IMG/VR virus record: IMGVR_UViG_3300025617_000046
Span: 1 to 41,131 of that record
DNA: 41,131 bases
Direction: 5' to 3' (one strand)
From: a virus
The position numbers and the translations under genes were made by a program. Shown in pieces: positions 307-41,131 of the stretch. The notes under the pieces were generated by a model. It had not been told where the DNA came from, ran no database searches, and saw only the letters and a program-made list of their open reading frames with translations. How positions within the stretch are numbered: position 1 is the first letter of the stretch; every line of letters begins with the position of its first letter.

Positions 307-1392
307 ATGATAAGAAAACGTGGTCAAAAATATCAGGCAAGGTGCCGTATCAACGGTAGGTTGTATGAAAAAACATTTGATACCCTCAATTCTGCAGAAC
401 AGTGGGTTTCCAAAACAAAACTTAAATACAATGATAAGACGCTGAAAATCACATCCCAAAATGAGGTGGTTTCAAGTAAAACAGTGGTCAAAGCAGTGGT
501 CAAAGAAGTGCGTTTTGCTGACCTAATTCTGAAATATCAGCAAGTTTATACCAGTGTCAAAAATGGTAAAGACAACGAAGACATCATCATTAACCGTATC
601 CTACGGGATGAACCGTGGGTGCAACTGGCCCCTGATTCGGTGACTTTAGATGATTTGACTGCCTACCGAGACAGCCGGTTACAGACCATCAAACCTTCTA
701 CCTTTAAACGTGAGTTTGCTATCTTGAAGCATTGCGCGAAGGTGTCGAAGGCTTTGGGCTTTGATGGTGTGAATGTGGAAATATTCCAACATCTACCCAT
801 ACCCCGAATATATGAACGGCCAGTACCTCGTATAACAAATGAGGATATCGAAAGGCTGCTGTTCATCGCTCGTTACGGCGCGACACGCAACAAATACATG
901 CATCCGCTTATCTTACTAGCTTTAGACACAGGCATGAGAAGGGGGGAGTGTTGTGGCCTGGTATGGGGTGACATAGACATGGCTAAGCAGGTCATTAATG
1001 TCCCCGCTGCCATAACAAAGACAGGCAAGCCCCGGACCATAGCCTTTACTAAGCGTGGTCTTGCCGCTCTGCTGGACCTAAAGCATCTAGCCCAGAAACC
1101 ATACAAAACAAAAGCTGTGCCATCACGCTTTGGCCCAGAACATCCTGTCGTACCAGCAACCGGTAATGGGGTTCGTATGGCCTGGCAGCGCGTCCGTAAA
1201 TCTGCTGGGTTATCACATCTACATTTCCACGACCTGCGCCATGAAGGTATTAGCCGTATGCATGAGGAAGGGATTACTGTCACAGAAGTCATGGGGCAGT
1301 CAGGGCACTCTGAAAGCAAGATGCTAGATAGGTACAGCCATGCTGATATTGACCGTGTCCGTCAGATAAGAGGGGGCCTGTACGATGCATAA
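307..1392 (+). CDS. int: tyrosine recombinase (phage integrase) 1
   Basis: This 361-aa site-specific recombinase would cut and join DNA at the attachment site through a covalent 3'-phosphotyrosine intermediate. The N-terminal 60 residues are basic and look like an arm-binding domain (YQARCRINGRLYEKTF). A core-binding segment follows, then the catalytic domain with every expected residue: Arg211 in TGMRRGE, the beta-hairpin Lys in TKTGKPR, His308 and Arg311 in HDLRH, His334 in GHS, and the nucleophile Tyr343 in LDRYSH. The start has AAGGAG at 295-300. The gene sits beside the tRNA-Pro-like site, as expected for an integrase. Its 3' end overlaps the next recombinase by 8 bases, so the two are probably translated together. 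The recombinase assignment is firm; which of the two performs integration cannot be told. Confidence 0.95.
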   Translation: MIRKRGQKYQARCRINGRLYEKTFDTLNSAEQWVSKTKLKYNDKTLKITSQNEVVSSKTVVKAVVKEVRFADLILKYQQVYTSVKNGKDNEDIIINRILRDEPWVQLAPDSVTLDDLTAYRDSRLQTIKPSTFKREFAILKHCAKVSKALGFDGVNVEIFQHLPIPRIYERPVPRITNEDIERLLFIARYGATRNKYMHPLILLALDTGMRRGECCGLVWGDIDMAKQVINVPAAITKTGKPRTIAFTKRGLAALLDLKHLAQKPYKTKAVPSRFGPEHPVVPATGNGVRMAWQRVRKSAGLSHLHFHDLRHEGISRMHEEGITVTEVMGQSGHSESKMLDRYSHADIDRVRQIRGGLYDA

Positions 1393-2251
1393 GCAACCTT
1401 CACTATTTGACCAGGCTACCATAGACAACAGCTTCTGGGGCTTTGTACAGCGTGAGGCAAAGCGGATGTGGCCGAGTGATACACATCGTAGCCGCAGCCT
1501 GTCTCAGTCCCGTGCATTTACAGAATTTGGCAACACTGCAAAGCGTCCCCTCAGTCAATTTCTGTCTAGTGATCTGGATGATTTTGCAGACCATCTGATT
1601 GCCCAGGGCAAGTCTGAGGCTACTGTGAACCGGTACCTGGCTAGTGTGAGCAAGGTTTTCAATCATGCTGTGAGCAAGCGCGTTCTGAAATTTGCACCCA
1701 AGCCTAACTTCTTCAAAGAGCCAGAGGGTAGGGTGCGCTATTTTGATGATGCTGAAATCGAACTGATGCTATCCTTCTTCAATAAACGTGGTGATTGGTG
1801 GATGCACGATATGGTGTTGTTGGCACTCAAAACCGGTATGCGTAAGGGTGAAATCGTGGCTCTAGGTCAGGGTGCTGCCACTATAACACCGTGCGGTCAG
1901 TGGATTGAGTTACCAGCTGAAGTGACCAAAACCGGCAAGGCCCGTGCAGTTGCTATTAGTAATGCATTAGCTAACGGCGCAGCGCACCGCCTTGCGGATA
2001 ATCTAGGTAGTGAATACACAGATAAGAGGTTTGAATATCGGTGGGGGCTGTTGAAGCGTGAGTATGCCCGTAATGACGATACATATGTATTCCATGTAAC
2101 GCGCCACACAGCTGCGTCACGGATGGCTAATGACCTGGCGGTGCCAACGGTCACCATAGCCCAGGCATTGGGCCACAGCAGCCTTCAGACCACACAAAAA
2201 TATGTACACGCCAAGCCAGATACGCTTGCCGATATAAGTAACCGCATGTGA
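1385..2251 (+). CDS. tyrosine recombinase 2, overlapping the first
   Basis: A second complete tyrosine recombinase of 288 aa starts inside the end of integrase 1. It has a SAM-like core-binding region (about residues 40-115, with LIAQGKSEATVNRYLASVSK) and a full catalytic set: Arg153 in TGMRKGE, Lys in VTKTGKAR, His237 and Arg240 in HVTRHTA, His264 in LGHSS, and Tyr273 in TQKYVH. It lacks the N-terminal arm-binding extension of integrase 1, so it is closer to XerC/D-type or tandem recombinases of integrating elements. Two intact recombinases in one operon suggest a heteromeric reaction, or separate roles in integration and excision; this is inference. A strong terminator follows 26 bases after the stop. 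Confidence 0.93.
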   Translation: MHKQPSLFDQATIDNSFWGFVQREAKRMWPSDTHRSRSLSQSRAFTEFGNTAKRPLSQFLSSDLDDFADHLIAQGKSEATVNRYLASVSKVFNHAVSKRVLKFAPKPNFFKEPEGRVRYFDDAEIELMLSFFNKRGDWWMHDMVLLALKTGMRKGEIVALGQGAATITPCGQWIELPAEVTKTGKARAVAISNALANGAAHRLADNLGSEYTDKRFEYRWGLLKREYARNDDTYVFHVTRHTAASRMANDLAVPTVTIAQALGHSSLQTTQKYVHAKPDTLADISNRM

Positions 2252-2670: not shown

Positions 2671-2909
2671 GCGTAATGACTTTAGTACCAGAGAACGTAA
2701 TAGATGATTTCGTGGATTACTGCCGGTCTTTTTACGGCTACGGAGGCATCTACTCCATGAACGCGCCGCTGCCCGTGATTAAGGCTGCGGTGACCAAATA
2801 CCTCAGTAGGCCGGAAGATGAATGGGACTTTCCGTTTGAGTGCGACAGCATGGACAGAGAGGGCGTCCGAAGCATCCTAGAATACGAGTTCGGGTTGTCT
2901 GAACAATAG
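2667..2909 (+). CDS. small acidic early protein (80 aa)
   Basis: Not recognised. The protein is acidic, with aromatic-rich segments (DDFVDYCRSFYGYGGIY near the N-terminus) and an acidic C-terminal half (RPEDEWDFPFECDS). It has no membrane segment or signal peptide. It overlaps the preceding small gene by four bases and is followed by a strong RNA hairpin and then the RNA polymerase gene. Confidence 0.6.
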   Translation: MSVMTLVPENVIDDFVDYCRSFYGYGGIYSMNAPLPVIKAAVTKYLSRPEDEWDFPFECDSMDREGVRSILEYEFGLSEQ

Positions 2910-2916
2910 GTGCGTG

Positions 2917-2945
2917 GTGGGTGGTGATAAATGGTCACTACCCAC
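2917..2945 (+). other. strong hairpin upstream of the RNA polymerase gene
   Basis: GTGGGTGGTGA (2917-2927) and TCACTACCCAC (2935-2945) form an 11-bp stem with one G-U pair and a 7-base loop. No T-run follows, so it is not a standard terminator. In T7, early mRNAs are cut by RNase III at such hairpins; a processing site or attenuator is possible here. Confidence 0.45.
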
Positions 2946-3016
2946 ACCCCTTTGTCATAGCCAATTGTCAACCCAAACATCTGTAAAAAAAGTGCAAAAA
3001 TTTGCCATTGTGTGGA

Positions 3017-3026
3017 CGACATGTCG
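3017..3026. promoter_or_regulatory. 10-base palindrome ahead of the RNA polymerase start
   Basis: CGACATGTCG is a perfect palindrome, flanked by GG and CC once one mismatched pair is allowed. It lies 38 bases before the polymerase start codon and could be an operator. Chance occurrence cannot be excluded. Confidence 0.25.
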
Positions 3027-3064
3027 CCCCACGTTTGATAATAATGGATAATGTAAGGAGTAGC

Positions 3065-5869
3065 ATGGATAACAAGAAAAACATTCATCAGCTCAATCAA
3101 GAGCAAGAAACCCGCATGACAGAGCGGGGCGAAGCAAACGCACAGCGTAAGCTCAAAAAAGCTATTAAGCGCGGCGATTTGTCTGGAACAAAAGCTGGTT
3201 TAAACTTGGCTGCTGAAGCACGGGAAAATGTCATTCTGGGCATTGAGGTGCAAGAAAACATTCAAGAAGCTATCGAACAGCTTATCGCGGAAACAGAAGC
3301 AAATGGTGCTAAAACACCTTCGGGCTGGCTACGCGAGCTGAAGGTAGTGCCATCAGATGTTGTTGCTGAACTGGCCCTACGGGTCTGTCTAGACTCTGTC
3401 GGCGCACAGTTTACCCAAGCAAATACAATTGTACATTTGGCAGAGGCTATGGAAGCCGCTGTTCTTAACTGGCACATGAGAAGCATCCCAGCAGGTAAAG
3501 ACTTTTTCAAAAATCTTAATCGCATTAACAAAGAAGAGGGTGGCTCAAAATACACAATGCGCCAGAGAGCCATCTACATCGCTAGTAAGCCTAAAATGCG
3601 TCAGATGCATGATGCGAAGGGCCAGCCAATGCTGAATGATGATGGGTCTCGTAAACTGGAAATCGACCCAAACCATTACTATTGGTCAAAGTGGACTGAC
3701 TCCCTAAAAGTAAAGGTTGGCGGTATAATGATGGCCGGTGTGCAACGAGGTGCAGCTAATGTATTCGTCTTTGAAAAAGAAAAAGAAGATTACACAGATG
3801 AGCATGTTGTTCCACGCATCCAGTTTACCGAATGGGCACAAGAAAATCTGACATCTGAGCTTGACGAGCTGTGTAGAAAATCTCCCATGCATGGCCCATT
3901 GTTTGATGTGCCAAATGATTGGGGACTACGAACAGTAGGGCCTTATGGCCAGCTATCCCTAAATATGCTAACGCCAATCGTTAAAAACATGTCACCAGAC
4001 CAAGCGAAAGCAGTGGACAAAGCGATGTTAGATGGCTCTCTAGATGAAGCCATGAGTGCGCTTAATAGTTTGCAGCGAGTTCCATACTCTCTAAATGCAG
4101 ATATTGTGGACCTTGTTGAATGGACTGTTAAAAAGATTGAAGCGAGTGAAGGGCGTCTAAAGGTTGAAGGATTTCCGTCTTTAAGCAAAGTTGAGGCACT
4201 CGAAAAGAAATCATCCAAAGAAACACAGAAGATGAGCGATGCAGACCGCAGTGCCTATCTGATGGAACTAACAAGCCGCAGAAAGCATAACCGCGAAGTA
4301 CCGGCTAATCTTCTGGCTCTGAAGCGGCGTTTGGAAGAAGCAAACCATGTGCTGGAGACAATGAAACCGACTAAAGACCAAATAGCAATCGACAGGTTTT
4401 ATCTGCCCATGAACTGGGATTTTAGAGGTCGGATCTACCACCTTGCTGAGTTCGGCTTCCAAAACACAGACTACATGAGAGCCATGTTTTTGTTTGCTGA
4501 TAAAGGTAAAGTGACGAAGAAGAATGAGCATCATCTTTTCCACCACCTAGCTAACATGTTCGGCTGTGGCATTGATAAGGAAAGCCATGCAGCGCGTAAG
4601 GCGTGGGCAGAGCGGAACATGGACAAAATCCTAGCGGTAGGTAAAAACCCTAAAGATGATGTTACGTTTTGGGAGAAAAATGAGCCAATCACTGGGGAAG
4701 GAACCGGCGAAACAGAAACTGCTTTTGAGTTTTGGCACACCTGCGATGAGCCTTTCCAATTTGCAGCAGCTTGCATTGAAATGTACCGCTACTCCCAACA
4801 TGGCGAAGGCTATGAGACAGGTTTGCCTATCCAGAAAGATGCAACACAGTCTGGTATGCAATTCTACGCTATGCTAGCCCGTAGCAGAAAAGATGGTGAA
4901 AAGGTAAACCTGACTGCAAGCGGTTCACAATCTACACCAGGTGACATCTACATCAATGTCCGTGACAAAGCTGAAGAAATGTTACTTGAAACGGTTGCTA
5001 AGCTTGAGGCCAAAGAGGCTGAAGGCACGTTAGAGGGTGATGAGATAGCTGACCTACGTTTGGCTAAACAGTGGAAGGATTATGGTTTGAGGCGGGGTCT
5101 GATGAAGACGCCGGTGATGACCCTGGCCTATGGCTCGGACCTTTATGGTTTTGCTAAATCAATTCGTGACAACGATATGAAGGAGCTGACCAGAGATGTA
5201 CGCGAAGGCCGCAGAGACAAGCATCCCTTTCACTGTGATGATGACGCCATTCTGAACGATGAAGGCTATAAAGCCTCATGGTTCATGGCCAAAATCATCA
5301 AAGAAGCCATTTTAAAAACAGTCACATCAGCGGCAGATGGCATGGATTATCTGCAGAAGATGGCCAAGCTGTGTCACACGGTAGATTTGCAGTTTGCCTA
5401 CAAAACCCCTCTGAACTTTCCAATGATGCAATACTGCAGAGATGAAAAGAAAAGAAAATTACAGGTGGAAATGCCAAAATGGGAAAATGAAGCGTTGAGC
5501 AAACGTGGCAGCGTTTCGCTGCAGCAGTACCACGATACCATTAACAGAGATGAGGCAATGAACGGGGCATCCCCTAATTTCATTCATAGCCTCGATGCTA
5601 CATTGTTGATGAAATCGGTACTGCTTTGTCGTTCCAGGGGCATAACAAATGTAATGACTGTCCACGACAGTTTTAGCACAACAATAGACAATGTTGATAT
5701 GATGGTTGACGCTATCAAAACCAGCTTTGTTGACCTGTTTGAGGATTACTGTCCCTACGATGCGCTGATGCAACAAACCATGCAGCGTATTGCAGACAAA
5801 ATGAAGCTCCCGGACCAGCTCGATTTGGACATAAAAGAGGTGCTGGATAGCGAATACGCCTTCAGCTAA
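3065..5869 (+). CDS. single-subunit DNA-dependent RNA polymerase (T7 family)
   Basis: A 934-aa T7-type RNA polymerase (T7: 883 aa) that would transcribe phage middle and late genes from its own promoters. All polymerase motifs are visible: MNWDFRGRIYHLAEF (T7 MDWRGRVYAV region), motif A with Asp592 in QKDATQSGMQF, motif B with Lys681 and Tyr689 in MKTPVMTLAYGS (the T7 Lys631/Tyr639 spacing is kept), and motif C with Asp868 in TVHDSF. Both metal-binding aspartates are present. The start at 3065 has AAGGAG at 3055-3060; an in-frame start at 3002 lacks this. The gene is flanked by the two 19-base repeats it may recognise. It is probably read first by host polymerase, although no convincing host promoter was found. 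Confidence 0.96.
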   Translation: MDNKKNIHQLNQEQETRMTERGEANAQRKLKKAIKRGDLSGTKAGLNLAAEARENVILGIEVQENIQEAIEQLIAETEANGAKTPSGWLRELKVVPSDVVAELALRVCLDSVGAQFTQANTIVHLAEAMEAAVLNWHMRSIPAGKDFFKNLNRINKEEGGSKYTMRQRAIYIASKPKMRQMHDAKGQPMLNDDGSRKLEIDPNHYYWSKWTDSLKVKVGGIMMAGVQRGAANVFVFEKEKEDYTDEHVVPRIQFTEWAQENLTSELDELCRKSPMHGPLFDVPNDWGLRTVGPYGQLSLNMLTPIVKNMSPDQAKAVDKAMLDGSLDEAMSALNSLQRVPYSLNADIVDLVEWTVKKIEASEGRLKVEGFPSLSKVEALEKKSSKETQKMSDADRSAYLMELTSRRKHNREVPANLLALKRRLEEANHVLETMKPTKDQIAIDRFYLPMNWDFRGRIYHLAEFGFQNTDYMRAMFLFADKGKVTKKNEHHLFHHLANMFGCGIDKESHAARKAWAERNMDKILAVGKNPKDDVTFWEKNEPITGEGTGETETAFEFWHTCDEPFQFAAACIEMYRYSQHGEGYETGLPIQKDATQSGMQFYAMLARSRKDGEKVNLTASGSQSTPGDIYINVRDKAEEMLLETVAKLEAKEAEGTLEGDEIADLRLAKQWKDYGLRRGLMKTPVMTLAYGSDLYGFAKSIRDNDMKELTRDVREGRRDKHPFHCDDDAILNDEGYKASWFMAKIIKEAILKTVTSAADGMDYLQKMAKLCHTVDLQFAYKTPLNFPMMQYCRDEKKRKLQVEMPKWENEALSKRGSVSLQQYHDTINRDEAMNGASPNFIHSLDATLLMKSVLLCRSRGITNVMTVHDSFSTTIDNVDMMVDAIKTSFVDLFEDYCPYDALMQQTMQRIADKMKLPDQLDLDIKEVLDSEYAFS

Positions 5870-21019: not shown

Positions 21020-24000
21020 ATGGCTGATAGATTACAGCAGTACGCTGATTGGCTTATCGCTAATCAGAACAAGAAAGGTACGCCTGAATTTGCCACGGTT
21101 GCTAACTCCTATAAACAGCTTCGGGGTGCCGTACCTGCACCAGCACCAGTACAAACGGCTGTTCCACAGCAACGTGATGGCCCATTGGCATATGGTTTCG
21201 ATAGAGGCCAAGAAATTGTTGGTAAGGGCATCGAGGTAGCCGGTAGATTGATTGGCTCTGAAAATGTCGCGGATTACGGTACCGGCATTGTTGAGCAGCA
21301 ACAAAAAGATATTCAAGCTGGCGGCTATCAGCCGTCTTATCCAGGCTCATTGCGTGAAAATTACAATAAGGGCCAGCTATTACCTGCATTAGGTGAAAAG
21401 GTCCTAGAAAACATCCCACAGATGGGTTTCGCCATTGGCGGCACAGCTGCAACAGCAGCGGCAGCCTACTTCGGCGCACCGGCATGGGCTGTTGCAACTG
21501 GTTCAGCCGCTGTACTAGCTGGCTCCGGCGTTATGGGGGCAGGTGAGGCTGCGTTAGAACAGGAAGAAAAGACAGGCGATTATAATGCCAAGGTTTCAGC
21601 TGGTGTAGGCGCACTTATCGGCGTTCTAGACAAGTTTGGTGCTGGTAAAGTAATCCCAACCGATAAAATTGCTAGTATGACAGCTGGCGAGATAATTGAA
21701 GAGTTATCACAAAAAGGCTTTGGCGAAGCAGCTGCAGAAATCACCAAGCGCACAATGAAAGCTGCTGGTGTTGAGGGCAGCACAGAAATGGCCCAGGACG
21801 CAGCTGTTATCTCTGGTGCCAAAACACAAGGCGCAGAATATACAGCCCCAGAAATCGGTGACCGGGCAATAGATAGCTTTGCTCTGGGCGGTGTAATGGG
21901 TGGCGGTACACGCCTTGGTGCAGAAGTTGTTAGAGGCGGCGCACCAGACACACCAACTAGAGAAGCTGCAGCCCAGCGTTTGACCGAACTAGGCGAGACT
22001 ATCAACCCAGTTATGGTTGGTAATGACCCACAGGCAGCAGCTGACCTAGCCAAAAAGCTAGATGGCATTGCTCAAGCAAATGGCATGAACCTTAAAGATG
22101 TAGCTAAAACCAGCACAAAAGGCGCACGTGAAGTTATCGACAAAGCGCATATCCAATATGCAGAAGATTTGAAGCGTTTGGCACGTGATCTGCGTGACCA
22201 GCTTGGCATCACCGACAGTGATGAGTTGTCGGTTGTTATGGACAAGGTTTTGGCAATTGCTGGACAGCGAGAAGCCAGAAACAAAACCAAAAGCACAGTC
22301 GGCATACAGGAAATGCAAGCTGTTGAGCGGTTAGCTGGCAACACACAAGAAGGTCAGGACATGCTGTCGCTTATGCGGCAGATGAACGAACTGACTACCC
22401 TGCATAATGAGGGGTATGTGGCTGGTTTGAGTAAATTCACAGACCAGCTATCACCAATCCCATCAAATGTTGGCTACTCAGACCGCAGCCTAATAGAAAC
22501 ACCCACACGCATCCTTGGCACCCTATACGGTGCCTCAGTTAACCCACTTATTCCAGCAGTACAAACTGCTGCAGTGATTGGGGGCAGGGCCGTTGATGCT
22601 GTTACCGGCAGACGCAGCCGGGTGGCTAAATACATCAGGGACAACAAGAACAACCAGGGTATCAACGCCCAGGGTGACTTCTCTGTCCGTGAAAATAAAC
22701 GCGCTGAAGCTGCAGCAATCAAGCAAGCTACAGAGGAAGACCGGCAAGCTGCTCAAGAAATGCACAAAGACATCTATGAGCAGAATGGACGCTTTGGTGA
22801 TTTGTCTCCACAGCAGATTTTGTTGGATGCAACGGGTACAAGTCCACAAAATGCAGTTTCTGCATTAGAGGGCCTAGCTGAAAACCCAACATATGAACGC
22901 GCAGCGCGACAGGCTATCAATTCCATCAAGAATGGCGGCAGAATACCAAACATTTCCTATGTTATTGCCGGGCTGAAAAATCATCTGGATAGTGACCAGA
23001 ACAATTCAACAAGAGACAGGCAGGTAGACCCAGCAGCGGAAGATAGACAGCCAGCTGCCGGTCCAGCTGATGTTTCTGCTGGTTACATCAGAGGCATCCA
23101 GGACAATCGTGATGCTAATGATGCGCTAATCGAAGCGGTCAATGCTGATGAAAGCATTACCCCAGCCGATAAGGCTACTCTGATAAATGCACTTGCAGAT
23201 TTACGCTCAAACCTTGGGTCTAACCCAGTTGAACGTGCATTTGAAATCGCAAGCAAGGCTGAAAGAAACCTAGAGGACGCAACATTAGCTGACAAATATG
23301 TCATGCCATATGTGGCCCGTGTTATGTCTCAGCAGCCAGTTCAAGAGGACATTGTTGCCGAAGATAGAGCAGCTGCGCCTGTAAATAATCCAATGCGTAT
23401 CTCACCACGCCGTCCGACAGCAAAAGCGGCTACTGAAGACCCACTGGGCGAAGTACCTTTGCAAATTGGTTCTGATGCAATTTTAAATTCTACCCTGGCA
23501 CCTAAACTTATCCCGAAAATGATGAATTATTTGGGTGTTAGAGGTGAACGCCAGCTAGGCGATACCCGGAGTGATGAAGAAATCCTTATCAATCATTTCA
23601 AGCAAAACTTGCTGCATCTATATTACAGCGTCAGCCCGGAATATCGTGAACGGGCAAAGCAGTGGTATGTCGGTGCGAACAAGTTGAGCCAACAGGCAGC
23701 TGACAAGTACGGCATGACGCTGGCGCAGGTAGCTGGTGTTATGGCAGCATTATCGCCTCAAAAAGATTGGTATATGAACTATGACCTGGGCATTAGAACG
23801 ATTGATGCACTAGGTAAGATACAGCCAGGTGATGTGTTCAACAAAGACATGGCGAAAGCCTATCGGCGCATGATTAAAGCGCAGAAGTCAGCTGGCGGCA
23901 GAAAAACCCACAACGCACATCTGAAAGCAGTAAACGGCAAGCGGTTTGACGAACTAAACGATATGCAGCAAGCAATCTTTTTGCGGTTTTATGATGAAAC

Positions 24001-25846
24001 AACAAACCCAGAAAAGAGCCACAGAGTTATCAGCCCAGAAGGTGAACTGCTTGATTTCCAGATGACTGCAAAGGGCGAGAAGTCTGGAACAGCCTGGAAT
24101 GGTTTTAGAGATATTGCCAAAGCTATTTCGATTGCACGGGATGGCTCACGCGAAAATATCGATAATAAGCTGGGCATGATGCACAAAGTGCGCAGCTTTT
24201 ATAATAACATTCTAGACCCTATGTCAGACCAGGGTGATGTGACTGTTGATACACATGCAGTTGCGGCGGCCCATTTACGGCCTTTTTCTGGCGAACATAT
24301 AGAGGTTAAGGAAAACTTTAAGCAGGGCGGCGCAGCAAGCGTTACCGGCGCAGTTGGCTCTTATGGTATTTATGCAGATGCTTACAGGCAAGCTGCAGCA
24401 GAAGTTGGTATACTGCCAAGAGAAATGCAATCAATCACCTGGGAAGCTGTAAGAGGCTTGTTTACTCCGGGATATAAAGGCCAGCAGAAAAACCAAGATA
24501 CCATAGCAAATATCTGGAAAAGATATGACGCAGGTGATATAAATATAGACCAAGCTAGACAGGAGATTTTTGATGACGCAGGGCGTATTAAAAGGGCAGC
24601 CTGGGAAGGACCAGGACCCAGTGATACAATCACTCAAGGAAGTCGGAGTGTTACCAACCCAGGAAACTTATCTGGCCCTAGCTTATCCGGAACAGGAGAT
24701 GGACGCGGAACTGGAGAGCAATCTCCCAGACCACTTCTTCGACCTTCCAGAAGCGTAGAATTTGACGCTGATAGAGCCTCTCAAATACTGGATCAAATAG
24801 ACCCAAGGCCACCGCAAACCTCACTAAATGTTGCAGAGGATTTACGCAACCGATTAGAGGCTATGCGTAGAGAAGATGGCTTTAGCAATATTCTTTTCGA
24901 TAAAGCTTATAAAACTGTAAAGAAAGCAGTTGCGAGGTTAGACCCAGAAAACCGAGCAACAATTAGCGCAGTTGCAATTGGGCTGGATGATAGCACCCGG
25001 ACCTCTAATGAGGATTTGGCAACGCTTACCCCTTTAATTACTGATGCTTTCCGGACGGTTTATGGTGACCCAGAGGGTGGAACACTCGGAGAATTTCGTG
25101 CTACTTATTCGCCGTTTGAAAAGAGACTAGTAAGGCGGCAAATTCAAGTCACAAATATCGGGGAGCAGACACCAGATGGTGATATGACGCCCCGAATGTT
25201 CTTTGAGACATTTTTACATGAACTAGGCCACGCTATCGAGAGCCAGACCGGTTTTCGTGGTTTTGTCGAATTTATGTCTAAAGCGTCTAACGCAGACCCT
25301 GATGGCACAACAACTTCAGCGCAGCTTTATCGCAAAATTGAACAGATAAGCAGAAATAGACGCCCCGAACTATGGGTTAATGCTGATATGAAAGCTTATT
25401 TTCTAGAGCAGCTAACAGGGGAAAACCTAACTAGCCAGCTTAAAAAACTGGCTCATATGTCCATGCAAGAATACACGGCCAATACCAGAAGGATTTATGA
25501 GGCAGAATTAAGTGTAGGTAAGGAAGTTAATGAAAAAGCGTTTTTCAAAGCCTTTAAAGAATTACACGATGAATTGCGCTACCTCTATGACCCGGCTGAA
25601 CTATCAGCAGATGTCATAGCTGCTTACTTACGCAACCCAAAGAAATTCAAAGCTGAATATCCAGATGTTGCGCAAGCTGTGCGTGGCGTAATCAACCAAA
25701 GCAAGTTAGCGGAATATGTGACCTTCCACGCTCTAGCAGGGATGATTGGAGTAGGGGCTATGTCACAGATGCTTATGGCAGCGATGGATGATGAAGAAGA
25801 CAGAGGCGCACTGTCACCCGGTAGAGGCGTACTCAGCGCAGCATAA
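21020..25846 (+). CDS. giant ejection/virion protein with LSPQ domain and HExxH motif (1608 aa)
   Basis: The largest gene in the window, with AGGAG upstream. By region: residues 1-35 are helical (LQQYADWLIANQNKKG); about 130-180 holds Ala/Gly-rich hydrophobic stretches (GFAIGGTAATAAAAYFG) that could enter a membrane; 350-800 is long helical and disordered; about 860-1190 contains AGVMAALSPQKDW (LSPQ at 911-914) with later DTHAVAAAH, resembling the DUF7178-type domain of phage proteins; and 1380-1450 contains FFETFLHELGHAIESQTG, a zincin HExxH motif (His1400, Glu1401, His1404). Size and location match T7 gp16-like internal proteins, but no lytic transglycosylase motif was seen. The metalloprotease could process the virion, the envelope or a host target; this is inference. 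Confidence 0.7.
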   Translation: MADRLQQYADWLIANQNKKGTPEFATVANSYKQLRGAVPAPAPVQTAVPQQRDGPLAYGFDRGQEIVGKGIEVAGRLIGSENVADYGTGIVEQQQKDIQAGGYQPSYPGSLRENYNKGQLLPALGEKVLENIPQMGFAIGGTAATAAAAYFGAPAWAVATGSAAVLAGSGVMGAGEAALEQEEKTGDYNAKVSAGVGALIGVLDKFGAGKVIPTDKIASMTAGEIIEELSQKGFGEAAAEITKRTMKAAGVEGSTEMAQDAAVISGAKTQGAEYTAPEIGDRAIDSFALGGVMGGGTRLGAEVVRGGAPDTPTREAAAQRLTELGETINPVMVGNDPQAAADLAKKLDGIAQANGMNLKDVAKTSTKGAREVIDKAHIQYAEDLKRLARDLRDQLGITDSDELSVVMDKVLAIAGQREARNKTKSTVGIQEMQAVERLAGNTQEGQDMLSLMRQMNELTTLHNEGYVAGLSKFTDQLSPIPSNVGYSDRSLIETPTRILGTLYGASVNPLIPAVQTAAVIGGRAVDAVTGRRSRVAKYIRDNKNNQGINAQGDFSVRENKRAEAAAIKQATEEDRQAAQEMHKDIYEQNGRFGDLSPQQILLDATGTSPQNAVSALEGLAENPTYERAARQAINSIKNGGRIPNISYVIAGLKNHLDSDQNNSTRDRQVDPAAEDRQPAAGPADVSAGYIRGIQDNRDANDALIEAVNADESITPADKATLINALADLRSNLGSNPVERAFEIASKAERNLEDATLADKYVMPYVARVMSQQPVQEDIVAEDRAAAPVNNPMRISPRRPTAKAATEDPLGEVPLQIGSDAILNSTLAPKLIPKMMNYLGVRGERQLGDTRSDEEILINHFKQNLLHLYYSVSPEYRERAKQWYVGANKLSQQAADKYGMTLAQVAGVMAALSPQKDWYMNYDLGIRTIDALGKIQPGDVFNKDMAKAYRRMIKAQKSAGGRKTHNAHLKAVNGKRFDELNDMQQAIFLRFYDETTNPEKSHRVISPEGELLDFQMTAKGEKSGTAWNGFRDIAKAISIARDGSRENIDNKLGMMHKVRSFYNNILDPMSDQGDVTVDTHAVAAAHLRPFSGEHIEVKENFKQGGAASVTGAVGSYGIYADAYRQAAAEVGILPREMQSITWEAVRGLFTPGYKGQQKNQDTIANIWKRYDAGDINIDQARQEIFDDAGRIKRAAWEGPGPSDTITQGSRSVTNPGNLSGPSLSGTGDGRGTGEQSPRPLLRPSRSVEFDADRASQILDQIDPRPPQTSLNVAEDLRNRLEAMRREDGFSNILFDKAYKTVKKAVARLDPENRATISAVAIGLDDSTRTSNEDLATLTPLITDAFRTVYGDPEGGTLGEFRATYSPFEKRLVRRQIQVTNIGEQTPDGDMTPRMFFETFLHELGHAIESQTGFRGFVEFMSKASNADPDGTTTSAQLYRKIEQISRNRRPELWVNADMKAYFLEQLTGENLTSQLKKLAHMSMQEYTANTRRIYEAELSVGKEVNEKAFFKAFKELHDELRYLYDPAELSADVIAAYLRNPKKFKAEYPDVAQAVRGVINQSKLAEYVTFHALAGMIGVGAMSQMLMAAMDDEEDRGALSPGRGVLSAA

Positions 25847-28105: not shown

Positions 28106-30139
28106 ATGGCTACAATCAAAGACTATAAACCGATGGCTGACGATGACATCCTCAAGGCTCTTGAGGTAAACATCAAGGCAGCAGTCGGCTATTACGATAG
28201 CGAATTATCAAGGGAACGCCGCAGGGTTACTGACTTTTACAACGGTAAACTGCCGAGGCCCACACATGATGGTAACAGCAAATATGTAAGCCAGGATGTT
28301 TATACCGGTGTACAGTCTATGGCTGCCTCACTGCTAGAGACATTCGCAGCTGGCTCATCCATCGCCAAATTTACCCCATCCGGGCCAGACGATGTCAGGG
28401 CCGCAGAGGTTTGCTCGGTGTACACAGACTATGTGCTGTTCCGCCAAAATTCTGCGATTGATATATTCCAAAGCGTTATTCTAAGTGGGCTGATGTCCAG
28501 AGTAGGGGTTGCCAAAGTATTTTGGGATATGCGCAGCGAAACCGAAGAGGAAGAGTTTACAAATTTAACCTCAGACGAATTGGACCTGCTGTTATCTGAA
28601 GATGATGTCGAGTTAGTAGATAGTGAAGAGAACGAAATCGGCCTATTTTCTGGTACGATAGAACGCACCTATGACACCTCGCAGGTTGTTGTAGAAAGCA
28701 TCGCACCAGAGCAGTTTATTATTGAACCACAAGCTGCCAGCGCAGATGTAGATTTTTGCGCACACCGGACACGTAAAAGCCTGACCGAACTGCGCCGTAT
28801 GTACCCTAATAAGGAAGATAAACTTTCAAAGATTGGCAGTGACCATGAGGATGTCGAATTAGAGACAGACCCGGAGGTTCTGGCCCGTTTTGAAGATATC
28901 GGCGCAGACCGTAAAAACTCAGCGCAAGGCTATCAAGACCAGGTGCGTGAGGTGATGGTTTATGAAGCCTATATAAACATAGATGTTGATGGCACCGGCA
29001 AAGCTGAACTGCATAAGGTTTGCAAGGCTGGTAACCAGATATTAGAGATTGAAAGGGTAGATAGACGGCCCTTCGTATTCTTTACGCCACTGCCTACACC
29101 TCATTCATTCTATGGCACCAACTATGCAGATAAGCTGATAGCGACACAGAACGCAAAGACTGTGCTGACCAGGTCAATCCTGGACCATGCAGTTATCGCT
29201 AATAACCCTAGATATATGGTGACCAAAGGCTCGCTAACTAACGTCCGAGAATTAATAGATAACCGGGTAGGTGGTGTCGTGAATGTGACCAGGCCGGATG
29301 CTATCCAGCCGATGCCACAAGCACCTCTGAACCCCTTCATCTTCCAAACCATAAATATGTTGGATGAGGATGCAGAAGAAACAAGCAGTGTTTCATCACT
29401 TAGCACCGGCTTAAACAAAGACGCTGTTAGTAAGCAAAACTCAAGTGCAATGGTAGAGCAGCTTATTACTATGTCGCAGCAGCGGCAGAAGATTATTGCT
29501 CGCCACTTTAGTACCTTTGTTAAGAACGTATTCCATGAAATTTACCGGCTGATTGTCGAGAACGAACAGCAAGAAAAGATAATTGATGTAGCCGGTGACT
29601 TTGTACAGATAAACCCACGTTCTTGGAAAGAGAAACGGGACGTAATGGTGTCGCTGCACCTCGGCTATAACGAACAGGAAAAAGAGGCCCAGAAACATCT
29701 GGCACTTCATCAGTTGTTCACGCAAGACCCAACCCTGCAGCCGCTATACAGCATAGAAAACAAATACAACATGATGAAGAAGGTTTTGGAAGCCCAGGGC
29801 ATTAAGAATGTTGATGCTTACCTTACTTCACCAGACCAAATTCCACCTGCACAGCCAGACCCTGCACAAGAAATGCAGATGCAAATGGCACAAAAGCAGT
29901 TGGAGTTGCAAGAACGGCAAACAGCATTGGCAGAACAGAAAGCCATGATAGATGCGCAGAACGCTGCTGCAAGATTGCAGCTAGATGCGGAGAAAGCACA
30001 ATCACAGTTTGCATTGCAATCAGACCAACAGGACCTCAAAGAAACTCAGCATGACCATAAGGTCAAAATTGATGAGGGTGAGTTGGCAATACTCAAACGA
30101 ACAGAGGACGTGCGAGGCATCGCAAGTCCAACCGGATAA
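28106..30139 (+). CDS. portal protein (677 aa)
   Basis: This forms the dodecameric ring for DNA entry and tail attachment. Its start two bases after the terminase, its length (P22 portal is 725 aa) and N-terminal segments such as VTDFYNGKLPRPTHDGNSKY, YTGVQSMAASLLETFA and IAPEQFIIEPQAAS match P22-like podovirus portals more than T7 gp8. The C-terminal 110 residues are Gln/Ala-rich coiled coil (QMQMAQKQLELQERQTALAE), suited to the portal barrel that projects into the head. No nuclease or protease motif is seen. Confidence 0.85.
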   Translation: MATIKDYKPMADDDILKALEVNIKAAVGYYDSELSRERRRVTDFYNGKLPRPTHDGNSKYVSQDVYTGVQSMAASLLETFAAGSSIAKFTPSGPDDVRAAEVCSVYTDYVLFRQNSAIDIFQSVILSGLMSRVGVAKVFWDMRSETEEEEFTNLTSDELDLLLSEDDVELVDSEENEIGLFSGTIERTYDTSQVVVESIAPEQFIIEPQAASADVDFCAHRTRKSLTELRRMYPNKEDKLSKIGSDHEDVELETDPEVLARFEDIGADRKNSAQGYQDQVREVMVYEAYINIDVDGTGKAELHKVCKAGNQILEIERVDRRPFVFFTPLPTPHSFYGTNYADKLIATQNAKTVLTRSILDHAVIANNPRYMVTKGSLTNVRELIDNRVGGVVNVTRPDAIQPMPQAPLNPFIFQTINMLDEDAEETSSVSSLSTGLNKDAVSKQNSSAMVEQLITMSQQRQKIIARHFSTFVKNVFHEIYRLIVENEQQEKIIDVAGDFVQINPRSWKEKRDVMVSLHLGYNEQEKEAQKHLALHQLFTQDPTLQPLYSIENKYNMMKKVLEAQGIKNVDAYLTSPDQIPPAQPDPAQEMQMQMAQKQLELQERQTALAEQKAMIDAQNAAARLQLDAEKAQSQFALQSDQQDLKETQHDHKVKIDEGELAILKRTEDVRGIASPTG

Positions 30140-30159: not shown

Positions 30160-30459
30160 ATGGCTGAAGCAATTTCAGATCAGAATGATGAACTCAAGTT
30201 AATCGATAATGGAAACGATGCAGAACAGCTTCTGCAAAACGAAACCTTTAACCAAACTATCAATGGAATGGTTGAGGGTACCTGGCAAGCATTTGCAGCG
30301 TCAGGTCCAGACGATACAGCAATGAGAGAACGCACCTATGCACATTATCGTGCGCTAGTCGATATCATCCACACCCTACAACAGCGGGTCAATGTGCGGG
30401 ATGAAATCATAGCAAAGAACGATGATGAAGCAGATAACGACAACAGTGGAGATGAATAG
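30160..30459 (+). CDS. small protein between portal and scaffold (99 aa)
   Basis: Not recognised. AAGGAG lies 10 bases before the ATG. The protein is acidic at both ends (DQNDELKLIDNGNDAEQ; NDDEADNDNSGDE) with a helical middle (TWQAFAASGPDDTAMRERTY). Position suggests a head-assembly chaperone or decoration role. Confidence 0.65.
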   Translation: MAEAISDQNDELKLIDNGNDAEQLLQNETFNQTINGMVEGTWQAFAASGPDDTAMRERTYAHYRALVDIIHTLQQRVNVRDEIIAKNDDEADNDNSGDE

Positions 30460-30463
30460 GACC

Positions 30464-31489
30464 ATGTCAAACGTCCAACTACAATCTCAAGAAATTATTA
30501 AGACTGATGCACCAGCTTTCGATGATATCGACAGTGCATCAGAGGCCCTTCTGGCTCGTTGGGAAGACGCTGAAAAGCCATCTGAACAAGAGACTGATGT
30601 GGCTACTGAGCCAGCTGACGAAGAGACAGAGCAGCTGGACCAGGAAGCAGAGGAAGATGAAGCTGACCTAGAAGACGAGGAAGCTGACGAAGACCCTGAA
30701 GAAGAGGATGACGCCGAAGAAACCGAAGAAGAGGAAGACGAGGAAATCAATCTTGATGATGATACCCTGGTTGAAATCGTGGTGGACGGCGAAGCCCAAC
30801 AGGCATCTATCGCGCAGCTTAAACGCCTTTACGGACAGGAAGCATCCCTCACACGCAAGTCTCAAGATGTAGCTAAACAGCGAAAAGAAGCTGAAGAAGC
30901 AATCGGCAAATCAAATGTCGTGCTACAGCGGATGTTGGAAAAAGCAGAAGAGCGTTATAAGCCTTATTCCGAGGTTGATATGCTTGTCGCTTCAAAATCC
31001 ATGACAACAGAGGATTTTGCCCAGCTACGCAAGGAAGCCCAGACAGCTGCAGATGATGTCAAATTCCTAAGAGAGGAAGCAGACACATACTTCAAGCAGC
31101 TGCAGACCGAACAGCAGCAAGCTATGCAAGAGCAAGCACGTGAAGCTGTAAAGGTACTGCAAGAGGATATCCCAGATTGGTCAAACAACCTCTATGACGA
31201 TATCCGAGCATTTGCAGTATCACAGGGGCTGCGCGAGGACCAGGTCAATACAATTGTTGACCCGGCAGTGATTAAGATTTTGAACAAGGCCCGTCTATTT
31301 GACCAGGCTAAGAAAATCACAACCACTAAGAAAAAGCGCACCTCTAAGAAGGTGCTCCGGGCTACCAAAGCACCGAACACCGAAGCTAACGAAAAGGCCA
31401 AGCGGATAAAAACATCTAAAGCCAAGCTTCGTAACTCAAACGACATGGATGATATTGCCGAGGCTCTTCTATCTCGCTGGGAAGCATAA
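30464..31489 (+). CDS. capsid scaffolding protein (341 aa)
   Basis: Directly before the capsid gene and of scaffold type: an extremely acidic low-complexity N-terminal region (residues 40-105, mostly Glu and Asp), a long coiled-coil middle (SQDVAKQRKEAEEAIGKSNV, LREEADTYFKQLQTEQQQAM) and a basic C-terminal segment (KKITTTKKKRTSKKVLRATK) of the kind that binds coat subunits. Start 30464 (MSNVQLQ) is preferred over 30422. A short motif occurs at both ends: SEALLARWEDAE near the N-terminus and AEALLSRWEA at the very C-terminus. Function is by analogy with T7 gp9 and other podovirus scaffolds. Confidence 0.82.
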   Translation: MSNVQLQSQEIIKTDAPAFDDIDSASEALLARWEDAEKPSEQETDVATEPADEETEQLDQEAEEDEADLEDEEADEDPEEEDDAEETEEEEDEEINLDDDTLVEIVVDGEAQQASIAQLKRLYGQEASLTRKSQDVAKQRKEAEEAIGKSNVVLQRMLEKAEERYKPYSEVDMLVASKSMTTEDFAQLRKEAQTAADDVKFLREEADTYFKQLQTEQQQAMQEQAREAVKVLQEDIPDWSNNLYDDIRAFAVSQGLREDQVNTIVDPAVIKILNKARLFDQAKKITTTKKKRTSKKVLRATKAPNTEANEKAKRIKTSKAKLRNSNDMDDIAEALLSRWEA

Positions 31490-31513: not shown

Positions 31514-32666
31514 ATGGCAACCATGACATCCTACGAACAGATCGGGTTGAAGGAAGATGTATCGGACATCATTACCGATATCACACCTACAGACACCCCG
31601 ATGGTTTCGTTAATTAAGACCCAAAAGGTCAACAACCGCACTTATCAATATCAGACAGATGCGCTTGCCGCAGCCGGCGCAAATGCGCAGATTGAAGGTG
31701 CAGACCCAACAATGGCAACATTGACACCAACAACCATGATTTCTGGTACAACCCAGATTTTGACGAAAGCCTTAACTTTGAGGGCCGCAGCTTAGTAATA
31801 AGCTGATGAAAACCATGTGAACTCAGGGAAACCCCAAACAGATAATGCTGTGGGCAATCCTGATCCAAGCCACGCAAGTGGAAGGTGCAACGACTATTCC
31901 GCAAGGAAGTAGGGCCAAGTGGCCCGAAGCGCATGGCATCCCTATGGGATGATGATATAGTCTGAACTTATGCGAAATCATAAGCAGTCGAAAGACGGTT
32001 TGGGTTTAACGAACCCAGGCGAACATATTTGTCCAAGTTTCAAGCACAAGCGATGCAGTGGCAACCTACGGCAGAGCCAAGGAAACGGCCTACCAGTTAG
32101 CCCGTGCCCTGAAAGCCATCAAGCGCGATCTAGAATTTGCGTATGTTGGCGCATCAAATGCAGAGGTTGCTGGTAACAACACCTCCGGTGGTACTGCCCG
32201 TGAAATGGACAGTGCAGACCAGCTAATTGATGCAGCAACAACTGAGGCAGGTGGTTCAGCCGCTCTGACAGAACAGAAGCTACTGAACCTTGGTGAGAAA
32301 GTGTTTAACGAGGGCGGTGACCCATCGATTTTCATGATAAAGCCCGGTGACGCCCAAGTCGTTTCGAATTTTACCGGCTCATCTGGCAGAAATCGGACGT
32401 TCAACGATGGTCAGAAAACACTCACAAATGTGGTTGACCTGTACGTCAGTCCATATGGTGAGTACAAGACCGTTTTGAACAGACACCAAATGACCACACA
32501 CGCTTTCCTTCTGGACCCATCAATGTGGCGTTCAGCGGTACTGCGTCCATTCTCTCGCACATTGCTTGCTAAAACAGGCGATAGCGAGAAGCATTTCGTG
32601 GTTGGCGAATACGGGTTGATGCATATGAACCCGAAAGCATCAGGCATGATTAACGCTCTTACATAA
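31514..32666 (+). CDS. major capsid protein, split by a group I intron
   Basis: Exon 1 is 31514-31772 and exon 2 is 32020-32666; joined they encode 301 aa. Exon 1 gives MATMTSYEQIGLKEDVSDII and DALAAAGANAQIEGADP; exon 2 continues NIFVQVSSTSDAVATYGRAK, YQLARALKAIKRDLEFAYVG and PKASGMINALT. This is the SU10/DUF5309 type of HK97-fold capsid protein, in which the QTDALAAA and AY..A...K.LKRD.E segments lie in one chain. Unspliced, the first frame stops at 31795 after 93 residues, and the second has no good start until a GTG at 32058 in mid-domain. The split codon at the junction reads TCG (Ser). The exon boundaries follow from intron pairing and from reading frame, independently. Confidence 0.88.
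31773..32019 (+). ncRNA. self-splicing group I intron in the capsid gene (247 nt, no ORF)
   Basis: Helices visible: P1 exon GCCT (31769-31772) with guide GGGC (31782-31785), the last exon U facing G as required; P2 31788-31794/31799-31805; P3 CCATGTG/CGCATGG (31813-31819/31930-31936); P4 TCAGG/CCTGA (31823-31827/31859-31863); P5 CCC/GGG; P6a CCAC-GCAA-GTGG (31870-31881); P7 GACTA/TAGTC (31892-31896/31958-31962); two extra hairpins between P7 and P3 (31897-31908, 31912-31925); P8 CATCCC/GGGATG (31937-31951); P9 31967-31984; P9.1 GTC-GAAA-GAC; P9.2 TGGGTT/AACCCA; and terminal G at 32019. P10 pairs exon CGAA (32020-32023) with TTTG (31777-31780). The P7.1/P7.2 pair points to subgroup IA. No homing endonuclease is encoded. 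Confidence 0.92.
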
Positions 32667-33369: not shown

Positions 33370-33981
33370 ATGAATTATGGTCAATTAAAAGCGCACTTTG
33401 AGGACATCCTCAACAGAAGCGACATCACCCCAGCATTGACCGAAACATTCATTGACCAGGGGATGACAAGAATAGGACGCCAACTGCGCACACCTATGAA
33501 CGAAAAGGTAAAGCGTTACACGCTCACATCGCAGACAGCATCATTAACGCTGCCCAACGATTTCCTAGAGTTAATTAGCTTCTATTATGGTGATAGAGAA
33601 ATATCACGGGTGCCAAACTCAAAGTTTAGGCAGTTTACCAACAGTATTTATGTTGGTGACCCTAAGTATTTTACTCGCCAACAAGAAGCTTTGTTCATCT
33701 ACCCACAGCCGGCATCAGGTGAACTGAACCTCTATTATTATGGTGATTTTGGCACACTAACAAACGACAGCGATGAAACGCCTCTGACTATCGCTGCCCC
33801 GGACCTCATCACATATGCAGCTTGTACCTATGCTGCAGACCATTTCCTTGATGAGAGAGCCGAGGTTTTTGAGGCCAAGTTTAACCAGTTTCTAAACGAA
33901 ATACAGGAACAGGCGAATGACCAGGAACTCAACGGTTCTACCCAGGTCATTGCCCCTGCTTACCAATTTGAGGATCAATAA
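33370..33981 (+). CDS. head-tail adaptor / connector protein (203 aa)
   Basis: The N-terminal helices MNYGQLKAHFEDILNR and LTETFIDQGMTRIGRQLRTP, the strand ASLTLPNDFLELISFYYG and the C-terminal AACTYAADHFLDERAEVFEA follow the pattern of podovirus adaptor proteins that sit under the portal (T7 gp11 and similar). The stop overlaps the tail fibre ATG by one base (TAATG). The role in joining head and tail is inferred from fold pattern and place. Confidence 0.78.
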   Translation: MNYGQLKAHFEDILNRSDITPALTETFIDQGMTRIGRQLRTPMNEKVKRYTLTSQTASLTLPNDFLELISFYYGDREISRVPNSKFRQFTNSIYVGDPKYFTRQQEALFIYPQPASGELNLYYYGDFGTLTNDSDETPLTIAAPDLITYAACTYAADHFLDERAEVFEAKFNQFLNEIQEQANDQELNGSTQVIAPAYQFEDQ

Positions 33982-39529: not shown

Positions 39530-39558
39530 GGTCAGCGTTATGCGCTGGCCTTTTTTTT
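39530..39558 (+). terminator. rho-independent terminator at the end of the late block
   Basis: GGTCAGCG/CGCTGGCC (8 bp with one G-U pair), loop TTATG, then eight T. The stop codon of the convergent minus-strand gene lies inside it. In the other direction the flank is less T-rich, so it acts mainly on late + strand transcripts. Confidence 0.92.
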
Positions 39559-41131
39559 CTTTTCAAATTCGTCTGTGATTTTTTGGTGCATCTCAATGAA
39601 GTAGGAGAGGGGCTGTCTGTTCTCTTGTTTAATGCCTGGTGATACGCTGTCCTCACACAATTCCCATAAATCATCACCAATATGACCTACACTTGCCAAA
39701 TACCAAGTGCGAATATCTTTACCTTCTGCATCACCTACATAAATCATAGCGATACCTTCTATTTCTCGGCCATTGATTATAAACTTACATCCCACTTTGT
39801 TGCCGGTATTGTCCATACGGCTAGTAATCACAATTGGGATGGGGTTGTGCGTATGCTCTACCCCTAATCTAAGTGCAATCATGTTCTGCACTTTTTTTCT
39901 GCTCTTTTTATCGTTGAGAAAGCGAAGGTCAAAACCTCTACCTTTCACCCCGCCGTGATTATCTTCCAGCTCGTTTAGCGCATCTCTGGCTCTTATGTAG
40001 GGTGGCACACCTTTACGCTTCTCTAATTCTTCTTTGCCCAGAAATTTGAAAACTTGGCGACTGTCATACACCTTCTTGGTAAATTCAAGCTCCTCGGCTT
40101 TGGTTCTATATGCTTCTGCTTTTTTGTTAACTTCAGCGATATTTGCATTTGCCGCTGCTAACATATTTTGCAGCTCCTCCACTTCAGCTGTTACCGGTTT
40201 GTCACCAGCGTCTAAGGTGCTGCTTGGAATATCCCCAGGCACTTTTGGGGGCACTGTATAGCCCATGTAACCTTTGGGTATAGCTTGTACATTAGCGTTA
40301 GCTGACGCAGTAAGCGGTCCAACCGAAGCTTTGCCGGATACACCTTTAACTGTGACGCTAGTAGACGCAGGTCCATCAAACAAAGGTAGGGCCTGGCGTA
40401 TCTCAGCAGCTCGCATGGCTACATGCTTTTCTAACTCACTCTTGTAGTGGGTTAGCATTTCTTTAGCGTTGTTGTAACGGATATTTAGGTCATCACGCTC
40501 TGCTTTCGTGATGGGGTTCATACCATTCAGCTCGTTTTCTAGATTTGCCCTCTGACCCGCCAGGTCATCTAGATGCTGGATTAATTCGGAAAAGCCTATC
40601 TGGTCTATAGGCTCAAATGTTTGAACCACCTCGACCTGAAACTGTGCATCATAAATATCGTGGTCCCAAAACTCTAGGTCCACATTATATTTATCTACAT
40701 ACGACTGTAATGCCTCGTTACAATCATCATCAGCACGTTTAACAAGTCCATTAAGCTCCTGGAGAATATCACTATAGCGGTCAAGCTCGCGTGTCTTTTG
40801 GTTAAACTCAGCTTCTACTTTAGCAAAAGCAGTAGACTGCTCTTCAAACTTTTCACGCAGGTCCTGGATTACTAACTCCTGTGCATAGCTAGTCTCCAGG
40901 CGTTTGGCATAATCATTTTTTGCAGCTTCAATAATAGCAGCTTCTTGCTTCGCTTCTGTCAGCTCATTAGATAGCTGCAGTTCCATCTCATCTTTATCCA
41001 GCTCAGCCCAATCACGCTCGTCTTCATGCTGCTGATAAATTGCGTTAATTTCCTCTTGTCGGCGGTCAGCATCTGTTTGCTGGCTCTCAATCCATTCTAG
41101 GAAATCACCATCATCATCATCAATCTTATTT
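39538..41131 (-). CDS. coiled-coil protein of unknown function, 5' end outside the window
   Basis: The only convincing minus-strand gene. An ATG at 40986 would give 482 aa, but the frame stays open to the window edge with sensible residues (DFLEWIESQQTDADRRQEEI, DERDWAELDKDEMEL), so the start probably lies beyond. The visible part is long charged coiled coil, then a Ser/Thr/Ala-rich linker, a second coil (LAAANANIAEVNKKAEAYRT) and a C-terminal mixed alpha-beta domain of about 190 residues (PPYIRARDALNELEDN, PIPIVITSRMDNTGNKVGCK, TWYLASVGHIGDDLWELC). No membrane segment or known catalytic motif is seen. Convergent orientation to the late operon suggests a separately controlled accessory (moron) gene or the start of host DNA. 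Confidence 0.8.
   Translation of the reverse strand, partial: NKIDDDDGDFLEWIESQQTDADRRQEEINAIYQQHEDERDWAELDKDEMELQLSNELTEAKQEAAIIEAAKNDYAKRLETSYAQELVIQDLREKFEEQSTAFAKVEAEFNQKTRELDRYSDILQELNGLVKRADDDCNEALQSYVDKYNVDLEFWDHDIYDAQFQVEVVQTFEPIDQIGFSELIQHLDDLAGQRANLENELNGMNPITKAERDDLNIRYNNAKEMLTHYKSELEKHVAMRAAEIRQALPLFDGPASTSVTVKGVSGKASVGPLTASANANVQAIPKGYMGYTVPPKVPGDIPSSTLDAGDKPVTAEVEELQNMLAAANANIAEVNKKAEAYRTKAEELEFTKKVYDSRQVFKFLGKEELEKRKGVPPYIRARDALNELEDNHGGVKGRGFDLRFLNDKKSRKKVQNMIALRLGVEHTHNPIPIVITSRMDNTGNKVGCKFIINGREIEGIAMIYVGDAEGKDIRTWYLASVGHIGDDLWELCEDSVSPGIKQENRQPLSYFIEMHQKITDEFEKKKKASA

Follow-up and report, generated by a model that had tools for sequence, protein, structure and literature searches.

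The major capsid gene of a marine metagenomic virus (IMG/VR record IMGVR_UViG_3300025617_000046, positions 1 to 41,131; this whole stretch of 41,131 nucleotides is called the window) is interrupted by a group I intron at positions 31773-32031. With a probability of about 0.93, this segment works as a self-splicing intron of group IA type, and it is one of many small introns without an open reading frame (ORF) that repeatedly entered SU10-type capsid genes. The window intron itself belongs to a known type; the new part, and the part of interest, is the capsid gene as a multi-site intron hotspot. No published account of such a hotspot was found in the open-access literature, most subscription journals being beyond the search.

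The Rfam group I intron model (RF00028) covers positions 31763-31984 over its full length (model 1-253 of 253; 79.7 bits, E 8.4e-19, gathering score 50), and it is the only RNA family exceeding its gathering score anywhere in the 41-kb window. Within the intron, the glutamine riboswitch model scored 14.9 bits, short of its cut-off of 35, and this match was dismissed as chance. The capsid frame from 31514 stops right after codon 93, and another frame takes over downstream of 32031. The gene is arranged as follows:

31514 to 31772, plus strand: capsid exon 1, covering codons 1-86 plus base 1 of codon 87, last base U (ORF; boundary by protein restoration and the rule that exon 1 ends in U and the intron in G).
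31773 to 32031, plus strand: group I intron, 259 nucleotides (nt), ORF-less, last base G (RF00028, splice-site search, covariation).
31793 to 31801, plus strand: tandem stops TAG TAA TAA in the exon-1 frame (ORF reading; unspliced mRNA would end at residue 93).
32032 to 32666, plus strand: capsid exon 2, which completes TTC (Phe87) and runs through the stop codon (ORF reading; spliced chain SU10_MCP E 4e-80).

Splice sites were searched among in-phase pairs, with the final U of exon 1 and the final G of the intron imposed, and the pairs were scored by the match of the spliced protein to intronless relatives. In these relatives, whose proteins are about 85% identical, the gene is unbroken and encodes 296-297 amino acids (aa), with ILTKAFQ[IV]S at the window's site. 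The top-scoring pair, 5 score units ahead, is the intron 31773-32031, which yields ILTKA/FQVSS and a chain of 297 aa. This chain belongs to the major capsid proteins of SU10 type (Pfam SU10_MCP PF17236, 269.9 bits, profile 4-292 of 292). The 3' end at G32031 comes from a search in which the G was imposed; the resulting protein is concordant with it, and so is a conserved GAA(C/G/T)A motif just inside the 3' end, which is intronic in 29/29 aligned introns.

An original prediction, made from the sequence alone, had proposed that the major capsid gene contains a compact group I intron that has no ORF, and that the capsid frame breaks and resumes in another frame. Both proposals were borne out by the covariance-model search it had suggested (a match well above the gathering score), by the intronless relatives, by covariation, by the end-to-end SU10_MCP match and by the three tandem stops, with the frame regained past 32031. 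Its 5' start (31773) was correct, whereas its 3' end (32019, for a length of 247 nt) falls 12 nt short. The site between 32019 and 32020 was rejected, as 32031/32032 is favoured alike by the Pfam score, by the 3' motif and by orthologues that lack the intron. An end at 32019 would insert four residues (SNIFV where relatives have F), fall before the GAA(C/G/T)A motif and lower the SU10_MCP score to 259.4 bits (10.5 bits lost). The predicted 301-aa capsid is therefore replaced by the 297-aa chain, which restores the intronless consensus; the proposed comparison with SU10 capsids gave a full-length match, with the 301-aa version scoring lower.

The single-strand fold of the intron RNA beats 200/200 dinucleotide shuffles (z -3.4). 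Covariation was counted for 14 helices, including the pseudoknotted P7, over 29 introns (the window and relatives). Standard pairs were found in 90.8% of cells against 70.5% after shuffling, and compensatory changes on both sides in 50 of 65 pairs. When the partners were slid by 1-3 columns, pairing fell to 33-43%; because the window sequence served as the template for the drawing, the structure has a bias over the slid versions, but one too small for the gap seen. The helices, with the share of cells paired over the 29 introns, are:

31769 to 31785, plus strand: P1, exon GCCU (31769-31772) with guide GGGC (31782-31785), U.G at the splice site (exon/guide pairing search, helix drawing).
31776 to 32037, plus strand: P10, CUUUGA (31776-31781) with exon 2 UCCAAG (32032-32037), 5/6 paired (read off the sequence).
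31788 to 31805, plus strand: P2 hairpin, missing from some relatives (helix drawing, covariation).
31813 to 31936, plus strand: P3, 31813-31819 with 31930-31936, 7 pairs, 99.5% paired.
31823 to 31863, plus strand: P4, 31823-31827 with 31859-31863, 100% paired, 4/5 pairs compensated.
31832 to 31854, plus strand: P5, the weakest helix as drawn, 56% paired.
31865 to 31885, plus strand: P6 and P6a (GCAA tetraloop), 100% paired.
31892 to 31962, plus strand: P7, catalytic-core pseudoknot, GACUA (31892-31896) with UAGUC (31958-31962), 100% paired, 2/5 compensated.
31897 to 31925, plus strand: P7.1 (31897-31908) and P7.2 (31912-31925), extra hairpins typical of subgroup IA, 96% paired, 8/8 compensated.
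31937 to 31951, plus strand: P8, 85% paired, 6/6 pairs compensated.
31967 to 31984, plus strand: P9, 96% paired, 5/6 pairs compensated.
31987 to 32017, plus strand: P9.1 (31987-31996) and P9.2 (32001-32017), past the end of the Rfam model, 95% and 85% paired, 2/3 and 6/6 compensated.

P7 is paired in 29/29 introns, with variants including GACUA/UAGUC, GACCA/UGGUC and GAUCA/UGAUC, and compensatory changes occur in each of P3, P4 and P7. By the presence of P7.1 and P7.2 between P7 and P3', the window intron is of subgroup IA. The 7-bp P3, the 5-bp P4 and P7, and the hairpins P7.1 and P7.2 of the original prediction were all found; its P10, described as exact, was not. Several points weigh against a functional intron with these boundaries. 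P10 has one mismatch with the correct exon, and support for P5 in its drawn form is weak. Most other introns have a larger splice-site margin than the window's (5), but both the Pfam score and the 3' motif are concordant with the site. In addition, a protein helper might be needed for splicing.

It is hardly credible that the insert is a dead intron or an assembly error and that no full-length capsid is made. Such a reading would draw on the record being metagenomic and without an isolate; however, the identical insert is present in a second, overlapping IMG/VR record (IMGVR_UViG_3300003409_000019, 33,218 bp), in which the capsid region is identical, with 3 differences in 8,859 bp. The helices are also preserved by compensatory change, the guide-matching exon codons are fixed, and exon 2 is open and conserved through the stop. 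A frameshift, a pseudogene or an assembly error was rejected on the compensatory covariation and the second record.

In the proposed mechanism of splicing, the transcript would fold into P1-P9.2, and guanosine would attack after U31772, which the guide GGGC positions within P1. Exon 1, its 3' end now free, would then attack after G32031, and the exons would be joined as codon T/TC (Phe87), giving the 297-aa SU10-type capsid protein. Because the unspliced mRNA would stop at codon 93, shell production would depend on splicing. Some intron copies derive from the wider phage intron pool, and others appear to have moved between sites inside the capsid gene. The analysis itself showed the structure, its conservation, the empty sites, the recent gain or loss and the phylogeny; we infer catalysis, the use of GTP in the cell, the efficiency of splicing and the mode of intron movement.

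Relatives were found by tblastn of capsid chains against fetched loci (L numbers are loci, G numbers are records), and sites were numbered by residue and phase on the window's 297-aa chain. The insertion site could be assigned for 43 introns in the clade of the window and for 13 from two more distant SU10-type clades. There are 15 distinct sites: 18.0, 19.2, 23.2, 26.0, 51.2, 56.1, 56.2, 87.1 (the window), 107.1, 115.0, 116.2, 225.2, 227.0, 228.1 and 276.2. The maximum is three introns per gene, in L022 and L146. At least one intron is present in 26/148, 5/71 and 6/54 distinct complete genes of the three clades, in samples fetched by similarity (not a census). Some of the counts given in this comparison include near-copies. 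Site 107.1 is occupied at the identical nucleotide in all three clades, including the GenBank phage C72C1. At the window's own site 87, L022 also has an intron; whereas other relatives have none. Under the imposed U and G rule, splicing restores the intronless protein for 43/43 window-clade introns, with margins of 4-22. An in-frame stop comes within 28 nt in 37/37 distinct introns; this was set aside as a signal, because early stops are also common in the other frames (49/74 within 30 nt). The contigs L163 (3671), L144 and L022 have an end at a capsid intron or within one; this points to assembly breaks where strains with and without the intron coexist, and therefore the intron counts may be low.

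Introns are present or absent at the same site in closely related genes, as in mobile introns. Over 2.36 kb, L103 and L104 have about 99% identity, and a clean 257-nt intron at site 116 is present in only one of them; many further pairs with and without an intron have exons that are 92-97% identical at the nucleotide level. In 42/43 introns, a plausible P1 places a G opposite the final U of exon 1; for L073 the automatic search chose an implausible distant partner. The 5' exon hexamer GGACAT of site 19 occurs in 8/8 intron-bearing and 12/109 intronless alleles, and GTACGT of site 225 in 14/14 and 19/109, counts that are not independent since the alleles are related. Judged from sequence, these fixed hexamers are what a working P1, or guide pairing, would demand.

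The intron tree clusters by site (15 label changes against a shuffled mean of 23.8). However, three introns group with those of other sites. The site-23 intron of L062 nests among the site-19 introns (support 96/87) and has the guide and the GGACAT target in common with them. In L146, the site-107 intron falls inside the site-225 group (83/96; 95/94 in a larger tree). The site-56 intron of L143 groups with the site-228 introns (100/100), both behind CCGT. A single origin of all capsid introns was rejected when introns from other phage genes were added (approximately unbiased test, p 0.017). The introns thus appear to have arrived repeatedly, with some movement between sites within the gene, the direction of which rests on moderately supported branches.

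Rfam was run over the full length of 87 phage records (1.85 Mb in total, 34 of them at least 30 kb long), and by comparison of coordinates with the loci 61/61 group I introns lie in the capsid gene. Many of these records were picked for a capsid intron and many are short, and the short ones say little about other genes. The long records, whether or not their capsid gene has an intron, give a fair view of the remaining genome, and no group I intron was detected in them outside the capsid gene by a scan that can miss introns split by large ORFs. This restriction to one gene might indicate that the intron is retained as a regulator of capsid output (a switch on GTP, growth state or stage) and not as a near-neutral parasite, and proposals of regulation exist for phage introns (PMC11878797). 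This is quite improbable here: most relatives are intronless and near-identical phages differ, so the intron is dispensable, and the positions are scattered.

All capsid introns searched are ORF-less, and the window intron encodes no endonuclease, its longest open stretch being 43 codons. The homing endonuclease families HNH, HNH_3, GIY-YIG and LAGLIDADG_1 gave no match over the cut-off in the 50 and 39 records searched, many of them fragments, and no homing-endonuclease family appeared in a Pfam scan of most window proteins. The sole hint of a homing-type nuclease is a sub-threshold GIY-YIG match (17.3 bits) in the intron-bearing genome L227 (record G031, 22487-22606). L103 also has, downstream of its capsid gene, a segment of about 0.6 kb (2862-3438) that is missing in the near-identical L104 and L105 and encodes a small protein on the opposite strand with a signal-like N-terminus. 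This segment was considered as an endonuclease gene and rejected, as by eye its ORFs resemble a small secreted and a basic protein, not a nuclease.

The vehicle of movement may be a nuclease in trans, recombination or reverse splicing, none of the four endonuclease families searched having passed its cut-off. Conventional DNA homing, in which another phage or an unrecognised gene would provide the endonuclease in trans and site-to-site moves would come about by relaxed nuclease specificity or recombination, is a serious possibility at somewhat less than even odds. For phage introns, homing is the accepted means of spread, alleles of near-identical genes with and without the intron coexist, and the introns lie at conserved codons, site 107 being common to three divergent capsid clades; whereas the ORF-less introns and the negative endonuclease searches speak against it. 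Local reverse splicing is rather unlikely. Free intron RNA would enter the abundant capsid mRNA at a guide match of 4-6 nt, followed by reverse transcription and recombination. The nesting of the L062, L146 and L143 introns, with exon motifs shared in L062 (GGACAT) and L143 (CCGT), is in line with this route, and the target mRNA is presumably expressed late and at very high levels. However, a reverse transcriptase is required, some nesting branches have moderate support, and a guide match is needed for splicing after any type of insertion and is equally expected otherwise. It is likewise doubtful that SU10-type capsid genes trap ORF-less introns which multiply within that one gene by guide-directed reverse splicing into its abundant mRNA, without any homing endonuclease.

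Introns in phage capsid genes have precedents. The original prediction had stated that phage introns mostly lie in other genes, which is broadly right apart from LittleE and Tuc2009, the latter as cited in the LittleE paper (PMC3706429). The major capsid gene of mycobacteriophage LittleE has an 819-bp intron with a homing-endonuclease gene; splicing was demonstrated by reverse-transcription PCR and N-terminal sequencing, and the intron type was called unclear (PMC3706429). As in the window, a temperate phage has in its major capsid gene what is probably a group I intron; whereas the LittleE capsid is of HK97 type, with a single site and an endonuclease gene in the intron. The introns of Twort orf142 (tail tube) are also similar to the window intron (core 72% identical over 163 nt), with three introns in one gene for an abundant virion protein; whereas the gene is not a capsid gene, the phage is a Staphylococcus herellevirus, and a single gene is concerned instead of a clade-wide pattern. 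This similarity toward subgroup IA2 is only a lead. The structure of the Twort orf142 I2 ribozyme has reportedly been solved. Exon skipping has been described in the Twort tail-tube gene (PMC11878797). Among the closest intron DNA of annotated phages (74-79% over 155-210 nt) are the introns of the pYD6-A DNA polymerase, the DSS3_VP1 terminase and the CRP-7 ribonucleotide reductase, which differ in residing in genes of DNA metabolism or packaging, some with ORFs.

In a 2025 survey of the Bastillevirinae, introns were found only in genes of ribonucleotide reductase, DNA polymerase and terminase type, and the reason was posed as a central question (PMC11878797). Those introns and the ones of the window's clade are both phage group I introns, with several per gene, and many of the Bastillevirinae introns match IA2 models; whereas most of the latter (32/45) carry nucleases and their genes serve DNA or nucleotide metabolism. 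The pattern described here, in a large group of phages, is the reverse: each detected intron lies in the normally most abundant structural gene, at many sites, with up to three per gene and no recognised nucleases. The natural pairs with and without the intron could be used to probe cost, benefit and mobility, and they come with candidate moves between guide-matched sites. Split capsid genes are also readily mis-annotated as fragments, which obscures the capsid protein in marine viromes. For example, in phage C72C1 (OQ984150.1, 8530-9731, locus L240) two 'major head protein' coding sequences with small ORFs between them read as a single gene split by a group I intron at site 107. Like the window, C72C1 (OQ984150) has an SU10-type capsid with a group I intron; whereas the site is 107 and not 87, the intron is unannotated and the capsid is only distantly similar. 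A literature search on C72C1 gave no result.

The capsid gene lies downstream of a scaffolding gene and upstream of an SU10-type adaptor gene, with an SU10-type portal gene further upstream:

28106 to 30139, plus strand: portal protein (Pfam SU10_portal E 3.4e-175).
30422 to 31489, plus strand: scaffolding protein (PHROG 3927 E 3.8e-26).
33370 to 33981, plus strand: adaptor protein (Pfam SU10_adaptor E 2.6e-27).

The genome also encodes a T7-type RNA polymerase, a family A DNA polymerase, a helicase-primase, a ribonucleotide reductase and a thymidylate synthase. As the original prediction had put it, temperate podovirus seems a fair description of the phage: podovirus because of the SU10-type portal, capsid and adaptor together with the T7-type RNA polymerase, and temperate because of two tyrosine recombinases. 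The latter are encoded at the left end of the window (307-2251) by two neighbouring genes with an overlap of a few bases. A 1608-aa protein (21020-25846), whose PHROG matches all have no assigned function, is possibly an internal virion protein. On the minus strand, a 530-aa ORF (39538-41130) runs off the contig end; a 482-aa part of it gave no PHROG match. A capsid relative with 50% identity was also found on a bacterial contig of Nitrospirillum iridis (L226, 283 kb), which probably contains a prophage of similar kind.
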